NCBI GenBank assembly: GCA_938036315.1
Contig: CALHPK010000016.1
Coordinates: forward strand, 1-59,997
DNA from: an uncultured bacterium
GTDB taxonomy: Bacteria; Calescibacteriota; Calescibacteriia; Calescibacteriales; Calescibacteriaceae
DNA length: 59,997 bases
Direction: 5' to 3'
Shown here: piece after piece, positions 37,902 to 47,430 of the stretch
Position numbering within the stretch: the first letter of the stretch is position 1
Layout of the letters: each line of letters begins with the position of its first letter
Notes under the pieces: model-generated
What the model was told of the DNA's origin: nothing
The model's input: the letters and a program-made list of their open reading frames with translations, nothing else
Database searches by the model: none
Made by a program: the position numbers and the translations under genes

Positions 37902-39086
37902 TTATTCTATTTCTTTCCCTGATAGTCCCAATATAGCTCTTGCGATAATTGTTTTTTGAACCTCCGAAGTTCCGCCTCCTATGGTTATAAGTCTAACATC
38001 ACGATATCCTTTCTCTATCTTAAATTCTTTCATATAGCCCCATCCACCCATAAGCTGAATAGCTTCGTAGACGTGCTGGACGATAGCATCTCCCCAGAAC
38101 AGTTTGAAGGATGAGGCTTCTACAAATGGCAATTCTCCGCGGTCTATGTGCCAGGCAATTCTGTAAAGGTAGGATCTGGCAACTTCGAGCGAAACCTTCA
38201 GGTCAACAATTTTTCTCTGGATAGCTTGGAAGTATGAAATGGGTTTGCCGAAGGCTGTTCTTTGGTTTGCGTAGGCCAGAAGTCCTCCGAGCAAAGCCTG
38301 AGCAGAACCAACAGAAGGGGAGAGCATAACAGAACGCTCCCATCCGAAAATCGTCCTGACAACATTGATAAACCCAAAATTAACCTCTCCTAAAACGTTC
38401 TCCTCTGGTACCTCGCAGTCCTCAAAAGCAAGCTCGCCAGTTGGAGAAAGTTTATTTCCCATCTTCTCAAGCTTGCGAGATACATAAAATCCTTTGAAAT
38501 TTTTCTCAACTAAAAATGCGGTTATCCCTGCTGATCCTAAAGATTTATCTGTTGATGCAAGGACTAAAAACAGATCTCCTATTGGTGCATTTGTGATAAA
38601 AGTTTTAGAGCCATTGAGTATCCATCTATCTCCTTTTTTGGTAGCCGTTGTTTTCAAGTGGATAGAGTCAGATCCCCCGTGAGGCTCAGTCAGGGCAAAA
38701 CATCCTATCATCTGACCCGAGGCTAATTTTGTCAGGTATCTTTTTTTCTGATCTTCCGTACCGTAGGTCATCAATGGGACTCCGCAGAGTATAGTATGTG
38801 CAGATAGAGACATAACCATACCTCCATCTACTGTAGCAAGCCCCAGGGACTCCCATGCTACACAAGTTGCCAAAGCACTTGCGCCTTGCCCACCGTACTC
38901 CTCGGGGAATGGGAATCCTAACAGACCGAATTCTTTGAATTTTTCCCATATTGGCCATGCGAATTCTTCTTTTGAGTCAAGCTCAAGCTGAATCTTCTCC
39001 TGAATAGGAAGTATGTTATCAACCGCATATCTGTAGACCGATTCTCTGAGCTGGATAAGCTCTGGATCCAAACTAAAATCAATCAT
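37902..39086 (-). CDS. Acyl-CoA dehydrogenase
   Basis: 394 residues, full length. The signature blocks are CFALTEPHGGSDSIHLKTTATKKGDRWILNGSKTFITNA, TAFGKPISYFQAIQRKIVDL, QLMGGWGYMKEFKIEKGYRDVRLITIGGGTSEVQKTIIARAILG, the last holding the Y-R-D and C-terminal FAD region. Catalytic Glu in GGGTSE-type position is in the late helix segment. The enzyme oxidises acyl-CoA to enoyl-CoA, passing electrons to ETF. Chain length is not deducible. It is divergent from the three FAD oxidoreductases across a 349-base spacer. Confidence 0.93.
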   Translation of the reverse strand: MIDFSLDPELIQLRESVYRYAVDNILPIQEKIQLELDSKEEFAWPIWEKFKEFGLLGFPFPEEYGGQGASALATCVAWESLGLATVDGGMVMSLSAHTILCGVPLMTYGTEDQKKRYLTKLASGQMIGCFALTEPHGGSDSIHLKTTATKKGDRWILNGSKTFITNAPIGDLFLVLASTDKSLGSAGITAFLVEKNFKGFYVSRKLEKMGNKLSPTGELAFEDCEVPEENVLGEVNFGFINVVRTIFGWERSVMLSPSVGSAQALLGGLLAYANQRTAFGKPISYFQAIQRKIVDLKVSLEVARSYLYRIAWHIDRGELPFVEASSFKLFWGDAIVQHVYEAIQLMGGWGYMKEFKIEKGYRDVRLITIGGGTSEVQKTIIARAILGLSGKEIE

Positions 39087-39347: not shown

Positions 39348-39377
39348 TTACACATTTTTTTATCAATTTATTATAAT
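39348..39377 (+). promoter_or_regulatory. Sigma-70-type promoter of the FAD-oxidoreductase operon
   Basis: TTACAC (39348-39353) is separated by 18 bases from TATAAT (39372-39377), a perfect -10. Transcription would begin near 39384. Confidence 0.6.
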
Positions 39378-39387
39378 ATATTGTATA

Positions 39388-39409
39388 ACCTTCCGAACGA
39401 ACGGTAGGT
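39388..39409. promoter_or_regulatory. Operator-like inverted repeat overlapping the transcription start
   Basis: ACCTTCCG and CGGTAGGT are complementary at 7 of 8 positions across a 6-base spacer (AACGAA). The shape and the CCG...CGG core resemble TetR-family operators of acyl-CoA/phenylacetate regulons. It overlaps the predicted start of transcription, which suits repression. No regulator gene is nearby. Confidence 0.5.
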
Positions 39410-39435
39410 AATTTATTGGAGGAGGTAACTAAATT

Positions 39436-41139
39436 ATGGTTACTGAAAGATATGATGCTGTCGTAATTGGTGGGGGTCCGAATGGTCTTGGAATTGCAGC
39501 ATATCTTGCTAAGGCTGGACTGAAAGTATGTGTGTGCGAAGAAAGACTCGAACTCGGTGGAGGAGCTGAAAATGTAGAACCTTTACCAGGTTTCAGAATA
39601 GATCCGCATGCAACTTATCTGTATGGTGCAGCAGCACCCATATTTGAACAATTGGAACTTTGGAAATTTGGCTTCCGTATGAAGTACTTTGCAACCTTAG
39701 CGGGAGGAGTAACAACAGATGGTAAAGCAATAGTATCCGGAAGATTCAATATAGAAAACACAATCCAAAGCATAAAAAAATACTCTCCAAAAGATGCAGA
39801 ATTTGTAAGATTTTCACATGAGAGTTTTGAGCCGTATGCAAAGGATTTCTTAAGAAGCATATTTTGGACTCCCCCGTATCCACTGGAGCATCAAGATCCA
39901 GATAATCTTCCGTGGATGAGATTCGTAAAAGAAAAAGCTCCGGGACTTTCTCTTCTTATCAACAGAGACACTATGGAACTCTCAACTTACGAACTTTTGG
40001 ACATTCAATTTGAATTTGAGCCACTGAAGGTGGTTATGGGACAAGGAGCATGGTACAATGGTCCATTCCCTGCTTGGCGTGGTATGGGAATCTTCGGGTT
40101 AGCAACGGGGCTTCTGATGGCGTATTCTTCAGGTTGTCCAGTTGGAGGAATGCACTCTATGATCCACGCTTTAGTTAGGTTTTGTCTGGCTCATGGAGTA
40201 AAATTTTACACCAATGCACCAGTTGATGAGATCATAGTTGAAAACGGTGAAGCAAAGGGTGTAGTTTTGGGTGGAGGTTATTCGGGAAAAGAAATAAGAG
40301 CAGAAAAACTTGTGGTAAGTGCAGTCGATGTTAAAACAACATTTCTAAAACTTCTCAAAGAAAAGTATGTATCGAAATCGCTAATTCAGAAAGTAAAAGA
40401 TATAAGCTTACACGGTGGTAGTCTCTTTGTACTTCATCTTATCGTGAAGGAGTTGCCGAAATACAAAGGGGATGCCGAAGAATTATTCTTTACTGGGAAA
40501 AATTATCCGTCTGTTGTCTGCCTCCCGGCAGACTCACGAGAATATGTTCTAAATCAAGCTCGTGACATATTTTCCTTCAGAACTCACCCGATGAAAGATG
40601 AGAGTATGCACATTATGATATGCTGTCATGATATATATGATGAGACAAGATGTCCACCAGGCTACCATGTTCTTTCTCCGATATACATCCAAGTTCCACC
40701 GCCAGAGTATCACAAAGATGGCCCACTAGCTGTTAACAAAGCAAAATGGGAAATTGCGGAGAAAATTCTTGGAACAATAAAGAAATTTGCACCAAATATG
40801 ACAGAAAAAAACATAGTAGCCAAGTTCATAAACACCCCATACGATTCAGAACACAGAAATATGGGACTCATCGGAGGCAATTGGTATGCCATTCGAGAAT
40901 GTGAAGACCAGTGGTGGAGCTTCCGCCCTATCCCAGAGCTTGCAAGATACAGAACTCCGATCCACAAATTATATCTATCTCATCAGACATCATACCCAGG
41001 GGGGCTATGCTTGTTCGCTGTACCTTACAATCTTATGCACATACTCATTGACGACGGGATCATACAAAAACCAGATTGGTTCTTTACCTCACCATATCAC
41101 ATAAAGGATAAAGAAAGTGATATAAGGAAAAATTTATAA
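39436..41139 (+). CDS. FAD-dependent oxidoreductase, phytoene-desaturase-like (COG1233 type), copy 1
   Basis: 567 residues. The dinucleotide motif is YDAVVIGGGPNGLGIAAYLAKAGLKV (GGGPNG at 12-17), followed by CEERLELGGGAENV, the E-x5-GG element of amine-oxidase/CrtI-like flavoproteins. A GMHSMIHALVRF element in mid-protein and a C-terminal LYLSHQTSYPGGLCLF segment are shared with the next two genes. A strong GGAGGAGG site precedes the ATG. Such proteins include carotenoid desaturases and PYROXD2-like enzymes; substrate unknown. It leads a three-gene row with 14- and 15-base gaps. Confidence 0.87.
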   Translation: MVTERYDAVVIGGGPNGLGIAAYLAKAGLKVCVCEERLELGGGAENVEPLPGFRIDPHATYLYGAAAPIFEQLELWKFGFRMKYFATLAGGVTTDGKAIVSGRFNIENTIQSIKKYSPKDAEFVRFSHESFEPYAKDFLRSIFWTPPYPLEHQDPDNLPWMRFVKEKAPGLSLLINRDTMELSTYELLDIQFEFEPLKVVMGQGAWYNGPFPAWRGMGIFGLATGLLMAYSSGCPVGGMHSMIHALVRFCLAHGVKFYTNAPVDEIIVENGEAKGVVLGGGYSGKEIRAEKLVVSAVDVKTTFLKLLKEKYVSKSLIQKVKDISLHGGSLFVLHLIVKELPKYKGDAEELFFTGKNYPSVVCLPADSREYVLNQARDIFSFRTHPMKDESMHIMICCHDIYDETRCPPGYHVLSPIYIQVPPPEYHKDGPLAVNKAKWEIAEKILGTIKKFAPNMTEKNIVAKFINTPYDSEHRNMGLIGGNWYAIRECEDQWWSFRPIPELARYRTPIHKLYLSHQTSYPGGLCLFAVPYNLMHILIDDGIIQKPDWFFTSPYHIKDKESDIRKNL

Positions 41140-41153
41140 GGGGGTAACGGAGA

Positions 41154-42770
41154 ATGAGAGTGTTTACAGGATATAAACCCAAGGATTTTCTGAAGGAGTT
41201 TCCTGAAGAGTTTGAATGTGATGCGGTGGTTGTCGGAGCTGGACCCAACGGGCTTATTAGTGCTCTGTATTTAGCATCTGCTGGACTTAAAGTTATCGTG
41301 TGTGAAAAAAGATATGAAATAGGGGGCGGACTTGCTACAGAGGAAATCTTATTCCCATCAAACTTATCCAATACCCACGCCGTATACCATATGATGGTTG
41401 ACTATATGCCGGTGCTTAAAGATTTCAAGCTAGATGAATACGGACTTGACTGGATCAAACCAAATTCACAAGTAAGTTTCATCTCGCAAGATGGGTTTTA
41501 CCTAACTTTCCACAGAATGGTCCAGGATTCAAAAGACTCTGTTGGGAAAATCTCAATAGAAGAAGCCGAAAGATTTGAGGGGAATTTCAGACTATGGCGA
41601 AGAATGGTTGATGAAATTTTAGCTCCTGCCACCTATGTCCCACCCCTCCCTCCGCTTGAGATGATAGAAAAATTTCAAAGAACTGATATAGGCAAAAAAT
41701 TCCTTGACCTGGCGGAGAAATCTCCAGCTGAAATCATAGACGAAAGCTTTAAATCAGAAAAACTGAAAGCTTTAATAGCCTACCTTGTTGGGATGTGGGG
41801 AGTAGACCTCGAAGAAACAGGAATGGGCTTTATGGTTCCACTTTTGGTTGTGAGAGCAACGCAAAAGTGCTATCCATATGGGGGTTCCCACAGGTTTGCA
41901 AGCTCTCTTGCAAGAAAGATAATAGGCGCAGGCGGACTCATCCTTGATAATGCGGAAGTTGAGAAGATTTTAGTTGAGGGGGGAGAGATAAAAGGAGTTC
42001 AACTCACAGATGGGAGAAAAATTTTTTCAAAAATCGTGGCATCTTCTCTACCAGCTCCATTAACATTTGAAAAATTAACTGAAATACCAGATTCGGCTAA
42101 AGAAATCGCAGAAAGCCTTAAGCAATGGAAATGGGATAAGTGGTCCTTCTTTACAGTCCATTTCACCTCACCTAACCCGCCACATTGCAAAGTCAATAAA
42201 GAGCTTGATAAATTCTTTGTGAGCATAGTAGGCTTTTCAGATTTTCAAAGTGTGTTAAGCTACTTTGGTAAGCTTAAGGAAGGGAAATTTACCCCTGTTG
42301 GCGGACATTTCACACCAGAAAGTCTTATAGATGAGACCCTCTCCCGTGATGGAAAATTTGTTTCATTTTTGCAAGTATGTGCTCCCTATCCTTCAGATAA
42401 GGAGAAGGAAAAGATAGGGAAGGAGCTTCTGGATATTCTTTCTGACTATTTTGAGTTCGAAGTCGACATGTTCGTATGTGAGAGCCCCAAAGATATAGAA
42501 TCAAGACTTGCATCAATGCCGTACGGCTCGATAAAGCATGGAGATTACACGCCATCTCAGATGGGATATTTTCGCCCAACCGAGGAATGCTCATCCTCTG
42601 CCACTCCAATAAAAGGCCTATACTTGTGTGGAGCGAGTTCATACCCAGGTGGGCTCATAATAGGGGGTCCTGGTTATATTGCTGCGAACAGAATTTGCGA
42701 TGACTTGAAGGTGCAGAAGTGGTGGCAACCTCCAGACTACATAAGAAAATTTTTGAAAGAGTATTACTGA
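41154..42770 (+). CDS. FAD-dependent oxidoreductase, phytoene-desaturase-like, copy 2
   Basis: 538 residues, paralogous to its two neighbours. A 22-residue leader precedes CDAVVVGAGPNGLISALYLASAGLKV (GAGPNG at 28-33) and CEKRYEIGGGLATEE. The mid-region YPYGGSHRFASSLARKIIGAGG aligns with the GMHSMIHAL and GGSHALTHAL elements of the other copies. The C-terminus has LYLCGASSYPGGLIIGGPGYIAANRICDDL, the FAD-contacting end. It is the shortest of the three. An AAGGGGGTAA-type site lies before the ATG. Confidence 0.87.
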   Translation: MRVFTGYKPKDFLKEFPEEFECDAVVVGAGPNGLISALYLASAGLKVIVCEKRYEIGGGLATEEILFPSNLSNTHAVYHMMVDYMPVLKDFKLDEYGLDWIKPNSQVSFISQDGFYLTFHRMVQDSKDSVGKISIEEAERFEGNFRLWRRMVDEILAPATYVPPLPPLEMIEKFQRTDIGKKFLDLAEKSPAEIIDESFKSEKLKALIAYLVGMWGVDLEETGMGFMVPLLVVRATQKCYPYGGSHRFASSLARKIIGAGGLILDNAEVEKILVEGGEIKGVQLTDGRKIFSKIVASSLPAPLTFEKLTEIPDSAKEIAESLKQWKWDKWSFFTVHFTSPNPPHCKVNKELDKFFVSIVGFSDFQSVLSYFGKLKEGKFTPVGGHFTPESLIDETLSRDGKFVSFLQVCAPYPSDKEKEKIGKELLDILSDYFEFEVDMFVCESPKDIESRLASMPYGSIKHGDYTPSQMGYFRPTEECSSSATPIKGLYLCGASSYPGGLIIGGPGYIAANRICDDLKVQKWWQPPDYIRKFLKEYY

Positions 42771-42785
42771 GAAAGGAGGTAAAAT

Positions 42786-44510
42786 ATGGACGCTGATATA
42801 GTTGTAATCGGTGGCGGTGTAAACGGATTAACGGCTGCAGCATACTTAGCTAAAGCTGGATTCAAAGTAATAGTTCTCGAAGCTCGAGGGGAATGCGGAG
42901 CTCACTGCAACAGTGAAGAGGTTACACGTGCCGGGTTCATACATAACCTACATGCAACGTGGCTTATCACAGGATTATCTCCTGCCATGGATGATCTTGA
43001 GCTTGAGAAGTTTGGCCTTGAGCTTGTTGGAACAGATTACGCTTACGGCAAGGTTTTTCTTGATGGAAAATGTGCCCTGATGGGAGTCGAACCTCAAAAC
43101 ACCTATCTCAATTGGAGCAAACTCAACCCCCAAGATGCCGAGTTTTTTCTGAAAGTTTCAGAAGTGGTTATTGAGAATTTCCAAGATATCCTTGATTCGG
43201 TTCATACATTTATATTCACCCCCCCAAAATACTCAAATGTTGAAAGGCAACTCAGTTTTCTGGAAAGTATTCTAAAGAAGATTAGATCCCCAATTCCCGT
43301 CTCAGAATTCGCGACTATGAACGGATTCCAAGCCCTGGATATATTTTTCAAATCTGACTACATAAAAACAATGATATTGTCCTTAGCTTGGATTGGCTCT
43401 TTTCCACCTATACACAGGAGGATTGGGACATCTGGAACGTTAGGAATTGCGGCACTAACAGGGTCTATTTTCCCGGTTCATCAGGCAAAAGGAGGTTCCC
43501 ACGCTTTAACTCATGCGCTTGTGCGCTGTGCAAAACATCACGGGGTAAAAATTCTGTCGAATTGTCCGGTCTCAAAAATTCTTGTCAGAAATGGGAAGGC
43601 TTTCGGAGTAAAACTATCCCCCCATGCTGTATTCCCTGGGGAGGAAATAACAGCGAGAAAAATCATAAGTAATTTAACCGTGACAAGAACCTTCTCAATG
43701 ATAGACGAAAATGAAATTGATCCTGAGATTTTGGCTCACATAAAGCTTTTCTGCTACGATGAGCAAGTAATATTTGGAGTTCATTATGCATTAAGTTCTC
43801 CACCTATATGGATAAGTTCTGAATTTGACGATGGGATCCAGAGGTGCTTTATGGGTTACATTGGCGGAGAAACTGTAAAAGATATGAAGGAATTTGCGGT
43901 TGAGCTTGTCTCCGGAGTTATTCCAGAGAATATCATGGCTAACTGGTTTGTTCCAACATTGGCAGACCCATCTCAGGCACCCGATGGATGCCATACCGCC
44001 TTTTTGTGGCTTGATGTCCCACCAATACCTGTGCGATTTGGCAACGAAGAATTAGAATACACCTTTGAGATATGGGACAAAATCAAGTGGAAGGTTGCAG
44101 ATAAGCTTACGGATCTTTTTGAAAGGTACGCACCGGGATTCAAAAAGCAGATCCTTGATGTGTTCCCATACTCACCACTGGATGTTTACAGAAATAATCC
44201 ATCAGCTGAGAAAGGAAACTGGAATGGTGGAGCAGTGGTACCTGAGCAATTTTATGTTCTAAGACCGCTTGCAGGAGTAACCAAAGGTGGAGCTTCACGA
44301 ACTTTCATTGACAATCTATATCTTTCGAATTCAATCCATCCTTACGGTGCTACATGGCTTGCCTCAGGATACATAGCAGCGGGTGAGGTTTTGAAGGATC
44401 TGGGAGCAGAGAAGCCATCATGGTGGCAAGCAAAAGCATGCGATTGGTACCTGAGAAATATATCAAAAATTCCCAGGAATATGGGAGTGCCAAAACAATA
44501 CAGAAGATAA
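42786..44510 (+). CDS. FAD-dependent oxidoreductase, phytoene-desaturase-like, copy 3
   Basis: 574 residues. It opens ADIVVIGGGVNGLTAAAYLAKAGFKVIVLEARGECGAHCNSEE. The FAD loop is kept (GGGVNG at 9-14), but the usual GG after the acidic residue is GECGAHC, a clear divergence from copies 1 and 2. Shared elements are GGSHALTHALVRCAKHHGVKI and LYLSNSIHPYGATWLASGYIAAGEVLKDL. GAAAGGAGG precedes the ATG. Loss of the second glycine pair could change flavin handling or turn this copy into a partner subunit. Confidence 0.87.
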   Translation: MDADIVVIGGGVNGLTAAAYLAKAGFKVIVLEARGECGAHCNSEEVTRAGFIHNLHATWLITGLSPAMDDLELEKFGLELVGTDYAYGKVFLDGKCALMGVEPQNTYLNWSKLNPQDAEFFLKVSEVVIENFQDILDSVHTFIFTPPKYSNVERQLSFLESILKKIRSPIPVSEFATMNGFQALDIFFKSDYIKTMILSLAWIGSFPPIHRRIGTSGTLGIAALTGSIFPVHQAKGGSHALTHALVRCAKHHGVKILSNCPVSKILVRNGKAFGVKLSPHAVFPGEEITARKIISNLTVTRTFSMIDENEIDPEILAHIKLFCYDEQVIFGVHYALSSPPIWISSEFDDGIQRCFMGYIGGETVKDMKEFAVELVSGVIPENIMANWFVPTLADPSQAPDGCHTAFLWLDVPPIPVRFGNEELEYTFEIWDKIKWKVADKLTDLFERYAPGFKKQILDVFPYSPLDVYRNNPSAEKGNWNGGAVVPEQFYVLRPLAGVTKGGASRTFIDNLYLSNSIHPYGATWLASGYIAAGEVLKDLGAEKPSWWQAKACDWYLRNISKIPRNMGVPKQYRR

Positions 44511-44608: not shown

Positions 44609-46420
44609 CTATCTCTCCTTAATCTTTATGCCGAGTTCATCAAGTTGCTTTTGGTATACTGAGGATGGAGCTTCAGAAAGAAGGCAAGTACCACTCTGAG
44701 TTTTTGGGAACGGGATAACTTCTCTTATGTTTTCCTCACCCAGCATAAGTGCGACGAGCCTGTCAAATCCAAGTGCTATCCCCCCGTGTGGTGGAGCGCC
44801 GTATCTGAGAGCTCTAATAAACCAGCCAAATCTTTCCTCAACTTCGGTCTCAGATAAATTGAGGATCTTGAAAATTCTTCTTTGAAGATCTTCTTGGTGG
44901 ATTCTTATGGAACCACCCCCGACTTCTTCACCGTTGAGGATTATGTCATATGCTCGCGCTCGGACTCGTAGGGGATCACTCTCCAGAATACCAATATATT
45001 CCTCCTTTGGCGCAGTAAAAGGATGATGTTCAGAAACATATCTTTGCTCTACTTCATCCCACGAAAATAGTGGAAAATCAACGACCCACAGAAAAGCAAA
45101 TTTTGAAGTGTTAACTTTGTTGAAATCATGCGAAATATTCTTCATAATCTTTGCTGTCACATCTCTGGCAAGCTCATATCTACCAGCTACTGCAAAAATA
45201 ACGCCATCGCTTCCGTTCAGAGTTAGGGCAAGGGCTGATTTTTCTTTATCCTGAAGAAATTTTAAAATTGGACTGGCCACAACTTTACCGCCCTGCACTA
45301 CAAACCACATAAGTCCTCCTGCCCCCATACTCTTTGCAAGCTGTTCATAGCTCACAAGTTTACTACGCGTCGGCTGGATCCCAGAAGCTACAAAACCTAA
45401 AACTTTTCCTCCTCCCTGGATCGCATCTGCTATGAAATCAAGTTTACTCTCCGAAAATATCTGAGTAAAATCTTGAATCTCAAAAGGAATTCTTATGTCA
45501 GGTTTGTCTACGCCATACTTTCTCATTGCCTCATCATATGAAATGCGCGGAAAAGGGATTTCAAGCTTGTATGACAAAACCTCTTCAAAAACAAATCTCA
45601 AAAGCTCCTCTACAAGAGCTATTATATCCTCTTCAGAAACAAAAGACATCTCAAGATCTACTTGTGTAAATTCTGGCTGTCTATCTGCTCTGAGATCTTC
45701 ATCACGAAAACACCTGACTATCTGGAAATATCTTTCATATCCCGCTACCTGTAAGATCTGTTTGAAAAGCTGGGGAGATTGTGGCAAGGCATAAAATTTC
45801 CCCTTCTGTAGCCTCGAAGGAACTAAAAAATCTCTTGCGCCCTCTGGTGTGCTTTTTGTGAGAAATGGGGTTTCTATCTCAATAAAATTGTGCATCCAGA
45901 GGAATTCTCTAACTTTTCTCGCTACAAGATGCCTCACAAGAATGTTTCTTCTCATTTTTTCTCTTCGCAGATCAATGTACCTGAACTTAAGTCTAATCTC
46001 CTCTGATGGTTCTTTTCTCTCTGTTGGCAAAAAGGGCAGAATATCCGGCTTACTTAAGAGCTCAATCTTTGATACAAAAACTTCAACACTGCCTGATCTT
46101 ATCTTCGGATTTTCAGTTCCCTCCGGTCTTCTCCTTACCTCACCTTCAACTCGGATGACAGAAAATTCTACCAAATCCTCAATTGTTCTGTATGTATCTA
46201 TTTTCTGCTCCTTTTTAGCTACAAGCTGAACTTTTCCTGTGATGTCGGCAAGATCGATAAATCTGACTCCTCCGTGATCTCTTATCGACTCGATCCAACC
46301 TACAAGTTTTAATTCCTTTCCTATATGCTCCTCTGACACCTGACCGCAACCTACACTTTTGAGACTAGTTGAAAACGGTCGGACAAGATTTTTTTTTCTA
46401 AGCTCTTCCAGATCTATCAT
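44609..46420 (-). CDS. aspS: Aspartyl-tRNA synthetase, bacterial type
   Basis: 603 residues. An N-terminal OB fold (GKELKLVGWIESIRDHGGVRFIDLADITG) precedes the class II core. It has the inserted GAD domain, typical of the bacterial long form, motif 2 (IVRCFRDEDLRADRQPEFTQVDLEMSF) and motif 3 (GGIALGFDRLVALMLG). Whether it is discriminating or also makes Asp-tRNA-Asn cannot be judged. It starts with ATGA overlapping the stop of the BtrH-like gene, so the two are translationally coupled. Confidence 0.97.
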   Translation of the reverse strand: MIDLEELRKKNLVRPFSTSLKSVGCGQVSEEHIGKELKLVGWIESIRDHGGVRFIDLADITGKVQLVAKKEQKIDTYRTIEDLVEFSVIRVEGEVRRRPEGTENPKIRSGSVEVFVSKIELLSKPDILPFLPTERKEPSEEIRLKFRYIDLRREKMRRNILVRHLVARKVREFLWMHNFIEIETPFLTKSTPEGARDFLVPSRLQKGKFYALPQSPQLFKQILQVAGYERYFQIVRCFRDEDLRADRQPEFTQVDLEMSFVSEEDIIALVEELLRFVFEEVLSYKLEIPFPRISYDEAMRKYGVDKPDIRIPFEIQDFTQIFSESKLDFIADAIQGGGKVLGFVASGIQPTRSKLVSYEQLAKSMGAGGLMWFVVQGGKVVASPILKFLQDKEKSALALTLNGSDGVIFAVAGRYELARDVTAKIMKNISHDFNKVNTSKFAFLWVVDFPLFSWDEVEQRYVSEHHPFTAPKEEYIGILESDPLRVRARAYDIILNGEEVGGGSIRIHQEDLQRRIFKILNLSETEVEERFGWFIRALRYGAPPHGGIALGFDRLVALMLGEENIREVIPFPKTQSGTCLLSEAPSSVYQKQLDELGIKIKER

Positions 46421-47430
46421 AGCCTTAAAAGCTCTGAGAGTTTATCGAAAGCCTCCTTCTCAAGGAAGTATATTTTTTGTGATATTTTTTTTGAGTTCTC
46501 AATTTCTGATTTTTGTATCCTTTCTCCTGCCTTTATATTTTCTGAAAATTCTTTGAATTTATAGGCAATGGTTCTCCAACTTTCTGCAGATTCTCTGATG
46601 ATTTCTGAAGCTTCATTTAAGGCTTTAATTTTAAGAAGATCTCCTGCTTCTCTGAGAAAATCTGAGTACATAAAGCGAAAGAGCCCTCCTCCTGTTCCTC
46701 TTTTTTCTATCACTTGATATGCAAATCTCAGCGCCCATCCAGAATCCTCATACAAAAACCACTGATCCAATTCATCTGAGAACTTCTTTATACCATCAAG
46801 ACCAATAAATTCCAATAGTCCTCCACGAAATCTCTGAATAACTTTGGCTATGGACTTTTTTATGCTTTCTTCATCAAACTTTACCTTAAAGGGCTCAACA
46901 GGCATCAGAAAATTTTCAAGCCTTACAAATGGGAAGGGATACTCCTGCGGATCCATAGCTCTTGCCAGTTCGTCTTCTGGGACAGATTTGATATCATCAA
47001 ATGAACTATCAGAAACCAAAAAATGAAGATTACTTTTGTTATATTCATAGCCTATGATTACGACTTCGTGTCCTGGGAAATGAACTCTTCCCGGATAATA
47101 GGAAAGGTAATATAGATCGGTTCTTGCGATAACTGGTATACCTGCATTGATAAAATCTATTATCTCTTTCTGTGGAAAGTAGGAGAAAGAGAGCCAATTT
47201 TTCTGTATCCCGATATTGTCAAAGAAATCGTCAACCAGAGTAGGATTTCTTCCTCCAATTGCTACCGATGGAGTTCCTCCCTTGAAATAGAAAAAGAGAA
47301 TCCCCGATGCTAACCCGAAAATAATATGTTCCTGTTCTCTGTTTTCATAGAATCTGGCAACATTTCTGAGAGAAGTAGAACCGCAATTTTTCCCCTGCGA
47401 GTGTTCAAACTTTTCTATTACTTTCCTCAT
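46417..47430 (-). CDS. BtrH-like cysteine acyltransferase/peptidase-fold protein
   Basis: 337 residues. The BtrH_N-type domain starts FEHSQGKNCGSTSLRNVARFY with Cys16 in the position of the papain-like nucleophile. It continues with GLASGILFFYFKG, IPVIARTDLYYLSYYP, FPGHEVVIIGYE (candidate catalytic His) and LVSDSSF (Asp). Residues ~190-337 are helical, like DUF4872. In butirosin synthesis BtrH transfers an acyl group from a carrier protein to an aminoglycoside. No antibiotic genes are nearby; role unknown. Its start lies inside the 3' end of tatA (26-base overlap), and its stop overlaps aspS. Confidence 0.8.
   Translation of the reverse strand: MRKVIEKFEHSQGKNCGSTSLRNVARFYENREQEHIIFGLASGILFFYFKGGTPSVAIGGRNPTLVDDFFDNIGIQKNWLSFSYFPQKEIIDFINAGIPVIARTDLYYLSYYPGRVHFPGHEVVIIGYEYNKSNLHFLVSDSSFDDIKSVPEDELARAMDPQEYPFPFVRLENFLMPVEPFKVKFDEESIKKSIAKVIQRFRGGLLEFIGLDGIKKFSDELDQWFLYEDSGWALRFAYQVIEKRGTGGGLFRFMYSDFLREAGDLLKIKALNEASEIIRESAESWRTIAYKFKEFSENIKAGERIQKSEIENSKKISQKIYFLEKEAFDKLSELLRL

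Follow-up and report, generated by a model that had tools for sequence, protein, structure and literature searches.

The 59,997-nucleotide stretch analyzed here (the window) lies within contig C16 (CALHPK010000016.1) of a 1.87 Mb genome that is 85% complete. The host is a heat-loving, uncultured member of the Calescibacterota (Calescamantes), akin to Ca. Calescibacterium nevadense. Calescamantes are hot-spring heterotrophs, and beta-oxidation has been reported for the lineage (PMC4791363). Three flavoprotein genes, denoted A, B, and C, follow one another in the window, with 14 bases between A and B and 15 between B and C, and a clear Shine–Dalgarno sequence precedes each open reading frame (ORF). 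The original prediction described three tandem COG1233-type paralogues, and the ORF coordinates and family matches agree with this description. All three products match the FAD/NAD(P)-binding Rossmann families of Pfam. The trio is real, and it is more conserved than the sequence alone could have revealed. The features of the locus are collected in Table 1.

Table 1. Features at and around the A-B-C genes, with the second alpha-beta locus of the same genome
Feature	Position	Strand	Basis or detail
Acyl-CoA dehydrogenase, divergent; probably outside the system	37902-39086	-	Pfam
TTACAC-18-TATAAT promoter-like hexamers	39348-39377	+	Present, not above chance
Imperfect palindrome ACCTTCCGAACGAACGGTAGGT, putative operator	39388-39409	+	20-base core unique in window
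Gene A, alpha-type flavoprotein	39436-41139	+	ORF, Pfam/NCBIfam matches; 567 aa, 64.1 kDa
Codon His58 of A (GFRIDPHA), predicted covalent flavin site	39607-39609	+	Aligned His column
Gene B, beta-type flavoprotein, predicted partner of A	41154-42770	+	ORF, Pfam/NCBIfam matches; 538 aa, 60.6 kDa
Codon His75 of B (SNLSNTHA), predicted covalent flavin site	41376-41378	+	Aligned His column
Gene C, second alpha-type flavoprotein	42786-44510	+	ORF, Pfam/NCBIfam matches; 574 aa, 63.8 kDa
Codon His56 of C (GFIHNLHA), predicted covalent flavin site	42951-42953	+	Aligned His column
Second alpha-beta locus D-E, then two copies of the small M-K-x-x-S-x-G-L-G protein	Own genome, contig C6:78-4267 (L009:78-4267)		

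The three proteins are only 27–29% identical to one another across their full length. The region of the GG motif reads LGGGAE in A, IGGGLA in B, and ECGAHC in C, so that the third copy indeed lacks the second GG, as had been noted. Residues C37, G38, H40, and C41 of this C-type motif are invariant among the aligned C orthologues. In a tree of 91 sequences with Shimodaira–Hasegawa-like approximate likelihood ratio test support, A, B, and C occupy distinct clades (100, 100, and 99, respectively), alongside two further families, D (99–100) and E (91), with C sister to D. The A, C, and D families form an alpha-type group (support 95), and B together with E forms a beta-type group (support 99). The separate clades and low mutual identity bear out the earlier view that the copies are not redundant. 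A very recent duplication of one of the genes is rejected, since the clades are older than the phyla compared.

The set is not restricted to this genome. The A-B-C order is the same in the sister genomes HRbin19 and C. nevadense, with an SCP2-family gene inserted between A and B. A Nitrospirae metagenome-assembled genome (MAG) carries A, B, a small protein, C, and E, directly followed by genes for an aldehyde dehydrogenase and an Fe alcohol dehydrogenase, and a Desulfobacterales MAG carries A, B, the small protein, and C. The possibility that the triplet occurs only here is thus rejected. A scan of genome contigs gave 45 A genes, and among the 42 with at least 1.5 kb downstream, B lies directly after A in 34. 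HRbin19 and C. nevadense are among the exceptions only because the SCP2 gene intervenes. Further paralogues accompany 21 of the 27 A-B loci for which 5 kb or more is available downstream of A; the small protein is found in 17, SCP2 in 12, a molybdenum (Mo) enzyme in 12, and a TetR gene in 6. Across 386 genomes surveyed, representing 259 families, high-scoring A genes were confined to the Calescibacterota and the Nitrospirae MAG, so that the A type appears rare yet widely scattered. The recovered A loci come mostly from Acidimicrobiales and Deltaproteobacteria groups, and scanning a plasmid collection gave distant homologues only. At one locus (L035:132-1709; G001, JAUQOU010000003.1), on a contig with a coverage of 1.4, the N-terminal part of A is fused in-frame to the C-terminal part of B, which may be an assembly artefact or a real deletion.

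The distance matrices of A and B correlate with r = 0.95 (38 loci; none of 2000 permutations was as high), which is consistent with a complex but is no proof of one, because adjacency alone gives a shared history. Pairing extends to the other families. D-E pairs occur in the Calescibacterota and at two Acidimicrobiia loci, and C-E pairs in the Nitrospirae MAG, Acidimicrobiia, and Acidobacteria. In the source genome, alpha- and beta-type genes stand together at two loci, each on its own contig (Table 1). Given the C-E pairs found elsewhere, the C gene of the window stands without its usual adjacent E partner; here, E is paired with D on the other contig. Judged from these gene arrangements, the enzymes appear to be built as alpha-beta pairs rather than from three equal subunits, with A-B as the core. 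A CrtI-like protein of about 492 residues that falls outside the A–E families precedes C in several Acidimicrobiia and Acidobacteria loci (L048:12933-14411, L056, L089) and follows A in L077.

The importance of a single histidine is suggested by the characterized relatives. In the delta24-steroid desaturase of Sterolibacterium denitrificans, flavin mononucleotide is covalently bound to the His of the motif G-F-L/R-X-N/S-T/L-H-A in both subunits, as established by mass spectrometry, and the same motif is present in both subunits of CtmAB, the limonene dehydrogenase of Castellaniella defragrans (PMC11061730). His-Ala is found in A, B, and C, where the His is the predicted site of covalent flavin attachment. 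The rest of the consensus is kept in part, with C deviating at position 3 and A and B at two positions each. In an alignment of 178 rows (175 homologues and the three proteins of the window), the His column is retained throughout the A–E families; the exceptions are a PYROXD2-like Sphingobium plasmid protein (L109), which has Val, and one truncated row. Of the individual links to the characterized enzymes, the conserved His-Ala is the strongest.

Both characterized systems also resemble A-B in gene arrangement. The CtmAB subunits, which are 27% identical, are encoded by neighboring COG1233 genes (1698 and 1650 bases; PMC4109377). By the published descriptions, the likeness comprises the adjacent gene pair, an identity of about 27%, and the His-Ala of the flavinylation motif, the rest of which is kept in part. 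The CtmAB pathway continues with alcohol and aldehyde dehydrogenases, the kinds of gene that the Nitrospirae set directly precedes. The delta24-steroid desaturase has subunits of 63 and 57 kDa encoded by adjacent genes and 26% identical, and its nearest relatives are reported from Acidimicrobiales and Deltaproteobacteria, among others (PMC11061730), the same groups that supply most of the A loci; the A and B proteins of the window are 64.1 and 60.6 kDa and 27–28% identical. In the sterol pathway, the flavin desaturase first creates the allylic position, and a Mo-dependent steroid C26 dehydrogenase then hydroxylates the side chain (PMC11061730). Mo enzymes related to this next-step kind and resembling ethylbenzene dehydrogenase adjoin A-B in many Acidimicrobiia loci (L046, L049, L057, L060, L076, and others). 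The Mo enzyme there is of the class II dimethyl sulfoxide reductase type, its best solved match is ethylbenzene dehydrogenase (2ivf), and beta, heme, and chaperone genes lie alongside in some cases. L046 and L049 each encode two Mo alpha subunits together with such genes.

Based on the gene set, the ancient paralogy, the alpha/beta grouping, the A–B co-evolution, the conserved His, the fold, and the neighbors in other genomes, we propose that A, B, and C are probably covalently flavinylated heteromeric dehydrogenases of the CtmAB/delta24-steroid desaturase kind that oxidize hydrophobic, isoprenoid-like substrates in an O2-independent manner. The original prediction had suggested a multisubunit flavoprotein or a stepwise lipid or isoprenoid oxidation. 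This is plausible because the only characterized relatives reported to have the same flavinylation site are two-subunit enzymes of terpenes and sterol side chains (PMC4109377, PMC11061730), although an alpha-beta pair seems the more natural unit than three equal subunits. In the catabolic direction that we predict, A and B would form the core enzyme and remove hydrogen from a C–H bond adjoining a double bond of the substrate, and the outcome would be either an additional double bond or an allylic intermediate (cation or radical) hydroxylated by water. C may perform a second, similar step, or it may take the place of A, with B or the E protein encoded elsewhere in the genome as its partner. The product would then proceed via aldehyde and acyl-CoA oxidation; the source genome encodes several aldehyde dehydrogenases and 11 acyl-CoA dehydrogenases, in a lineage with reported beta-oxidation.

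The Mo-enzyme neighbors, taken together with the flavin-then-Mo sequence of the sterol pathway, suggest a covalently flavinylated A-B heteromer for isoprenoid-like substrates that would be served by substrate-handling proteins, with SCP2-type and small M-K-x-x-S-x-G-L-G proteins presenting or holding a water-insoluble substrate. The small proteins, mostly of about 100–200 residues, share an invariant N-terminal S-x-G-L-G and a P-x-x-W motif. They are encoded at L043:13548-13928 and about 25 other loci, usually directly 3' of B or E. No credible Pfam or NCBIfam match and no solved relative was found for this family, and its model (predicted local distance difference test (pLDDT) score 74; predicted template modeling (pTM) score 0.34) is too weak for conclusions on the fold. 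Two SCP2 genes are present in the source genome, one of which shares 34% identity with its counterpart in the HRbin19 cluster; the other lies on contig C26, where no related cluster was found. A DctP-like gene precedes an SCP2 gene in this genome (L125:5743-6726).

Several observations weigh against this proposal. The likeness to CtmA, CtmB, and the delta24-steroid desaturase appears from the published motif, sizes, and gene arrangement rather than from direct sequence comparison. A has D-P in place of N/S-T/L, and B is without G-F; in view of these deviations, the characterized pairs may resemble C, E, or another family in the tree more closely. The co-evolution of A and B is explainable by gene adjacency alone. 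In contrast to the CtmAB system, a third member (C) is present in the window, and neither a gene for a ferredoxin (CtmE) nor one for a ferredoxin reductase (CtmF) was found next to A-B-C. The window operon contains no SCP2 gene. Unlike in the sterol pathway, a search for an ethylbenzene-type Mo hydroxylase in the source genome, 85% complete, gave only a weak partial match. With no such enzyme found, the A-B enzyme of this genome might hydroxylate by the flavoenzyme alone, as CtmAB does, or use another substrate. A more elaborate version of the proposal, which we offer tentatively as a possibility, is that two or three alpha-beta pairs (A/B, C/E, and D/E) act in sequence or in one complex on an isoprenoid hydrocarbon, so that a thermophilic candidate phylum that is not known to break down compounds of this type would carry out anaerobic C–H oxidation, with SCP2 and a dedicated, previously undescribed small protein handling the substrate.

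The set could instead be biosynthetic in the Calescibacterota, desaturating or modifying an endogenous isoprenoid or lipid such as a quinone side chain or a membrane lipid. The presence of the set in four of the five genomes of the host's family would also fit such a role, as would the two alpha- and beta-type loci on separate contigs and a fold nearest to that of a carotenoid desaturase (4rep). We nevertheless regard this explanation as unlikely. A search for squalene/phytoene synthase (SQS_PSY) gave no match in the source genome (85% complete), which speaks against carotenoid synthesis, and no carotenoid or hopanoid route is evident. Moreover, the relatives adjoin genes of a catabolic type, namely those for Mo hydroxylases, acyl-CoA and aldehyde dehydrogenases, and TetR regulators.

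The AlphaFold2 model of A (pLDDT 85, pTM 0.87) has the COG1233-type, carotenoid desaturase fold. Its closest solved structure is gamma-carotene desaturase (4rep; Z 27.8 over 467 residues), and the phytoene desaturase CrtI (4dgk) gave a Z of 19.3; sequence searches for a close solved structure of the A-B-C family found none. This shared fold is uninformative on the substrate. The top NCBIfam model for all three proteins is the beta-carotene ketolase CrtO, which might suggest ordinary single-subunit enzymes of the CrtO/PYROXD2 kind, performing retinoid, carotenoid, or lipid oxidations and clustered for co-regulation only. Scattered single homologues in one genome (G052) and others would fit this picture. 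However, the CrtO scores of A, B, and C (174, 168, and 160 bits) are far below the cutoff of 1000, and those for crtI_fam (53–75 bits) are below the cutoff of 238; with no SQS_PSY match in the 85% complete genome either, carotenoid biosynthesis is unsupported. The window genes also occur as alpha-beta pairs, and the A–B synteny and co-evolution across phyla, together with a flavinylation His that is conserved here and missing from the PYROXD2-like plasmid sequence, make single-subunit enzymes an improbable explanation. A role of the trio in fatty-acid oxidation with the divergent acyl-CoA dehydrogenase, with which it shares an intergenic region in a lineage that has beta-oxidation (PMC4791363), is highly improbable, since the genome encodes 10 other acyl-CoA dehydrogenases (11 in all), the characterized COG1233 relatives act on free hydrocarbon and steroid rather than on CoA thioesters, and this neighbor is absent beside A in HRbin19 and C. 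nevadense. The divergent gene had been reported correctly, as its Pfam match indicates, but its link to the trio is not supported, and it is probably no part of the system because the neighbor is not conserved.

If the heteromeric dehydrogenase proposed above is correct, the trio predicts O2-free oxidation of the isoprenoid type in this phylum, since the sole characterized close relatives oxidize terpenes and sterols without oxygen. We found no report in the literature of anaerobic terpene- or sterol-type oxidation in the host phylum, and only two characterized enzymes of the flavinylated family. With this set, the known range of such enzymes would come to include a deep-branching phylum of hot springs and a multipair architecture with conserved small partners, and the set would offer a thermophilic version for structural work on the family. 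Together with the occurrence of A-B beside ethylbenzene-dehydrogenase-like Mo enzymes in many Acidimicrobiia, this makes O2-independent isoprenoid or sterol oxidation directly testable in these lineages.

Upstream of A, the promoter-like hexamers are present as the original prediction described them, but they are no better than chance. Sixteen sigma-70-like hexamers were found in the region against 15.7 expected, and a TTACAC/TATAAT pair with at most one mismatch is expected 0.42 times per window. In the absence of enrichment, they are rejected as a better-than-chance promoter. The palindrome, which had been likened to a TetR operator, fares better. The only mismatch-free match of the pattern GAACNNACGGTNGGTA in the genome lies upstream of A; inexact matches are not above the control. 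The window shares with HRbin19 and C. nevadense the block C(T/G)AAC..A(C/T)GGT(A/T)GGTA, placed about 25 bases upstream of A. It corresponds to the 3' half of the palindrome, and its spacing to the start codon is similar in the two sister genomes, whereas most of the remaining upstream DNA differs among the three. On the other hand, the palindrome is imperfect, and no TetR gene lies next to A in the window, with three elsewhere in the genome; in several loci of other phyla, TetR genes are located divergently upstream of A. The operator is regarded as putative, with moderate support from the block shared by the three genomes. A possible second site at C3:38740 was rejected because it falls within a coding region. 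The AT-rich palindrome upstream of D (GTAAAGT..ACTTTATAC-like), seen in the source genome and three sisters, is a different one.

Two further neighborhoods can be described. Genes resembling, by sequence, those of a tripartite ATP-independent periplasmic (TRAP) transporter (DctP/Q/M-like; L033:1449-4778) are divergent from the A-B-C-E cluster of the Nitrospirae MAG. In the window, positions 46417-47430 of the minus strand encode a C39-peptidase-like protein with BtrH_N and DUF4872 domains, which overlaps by a few bases with the next gene, one resembling aspartyl-tRNA synthetase.

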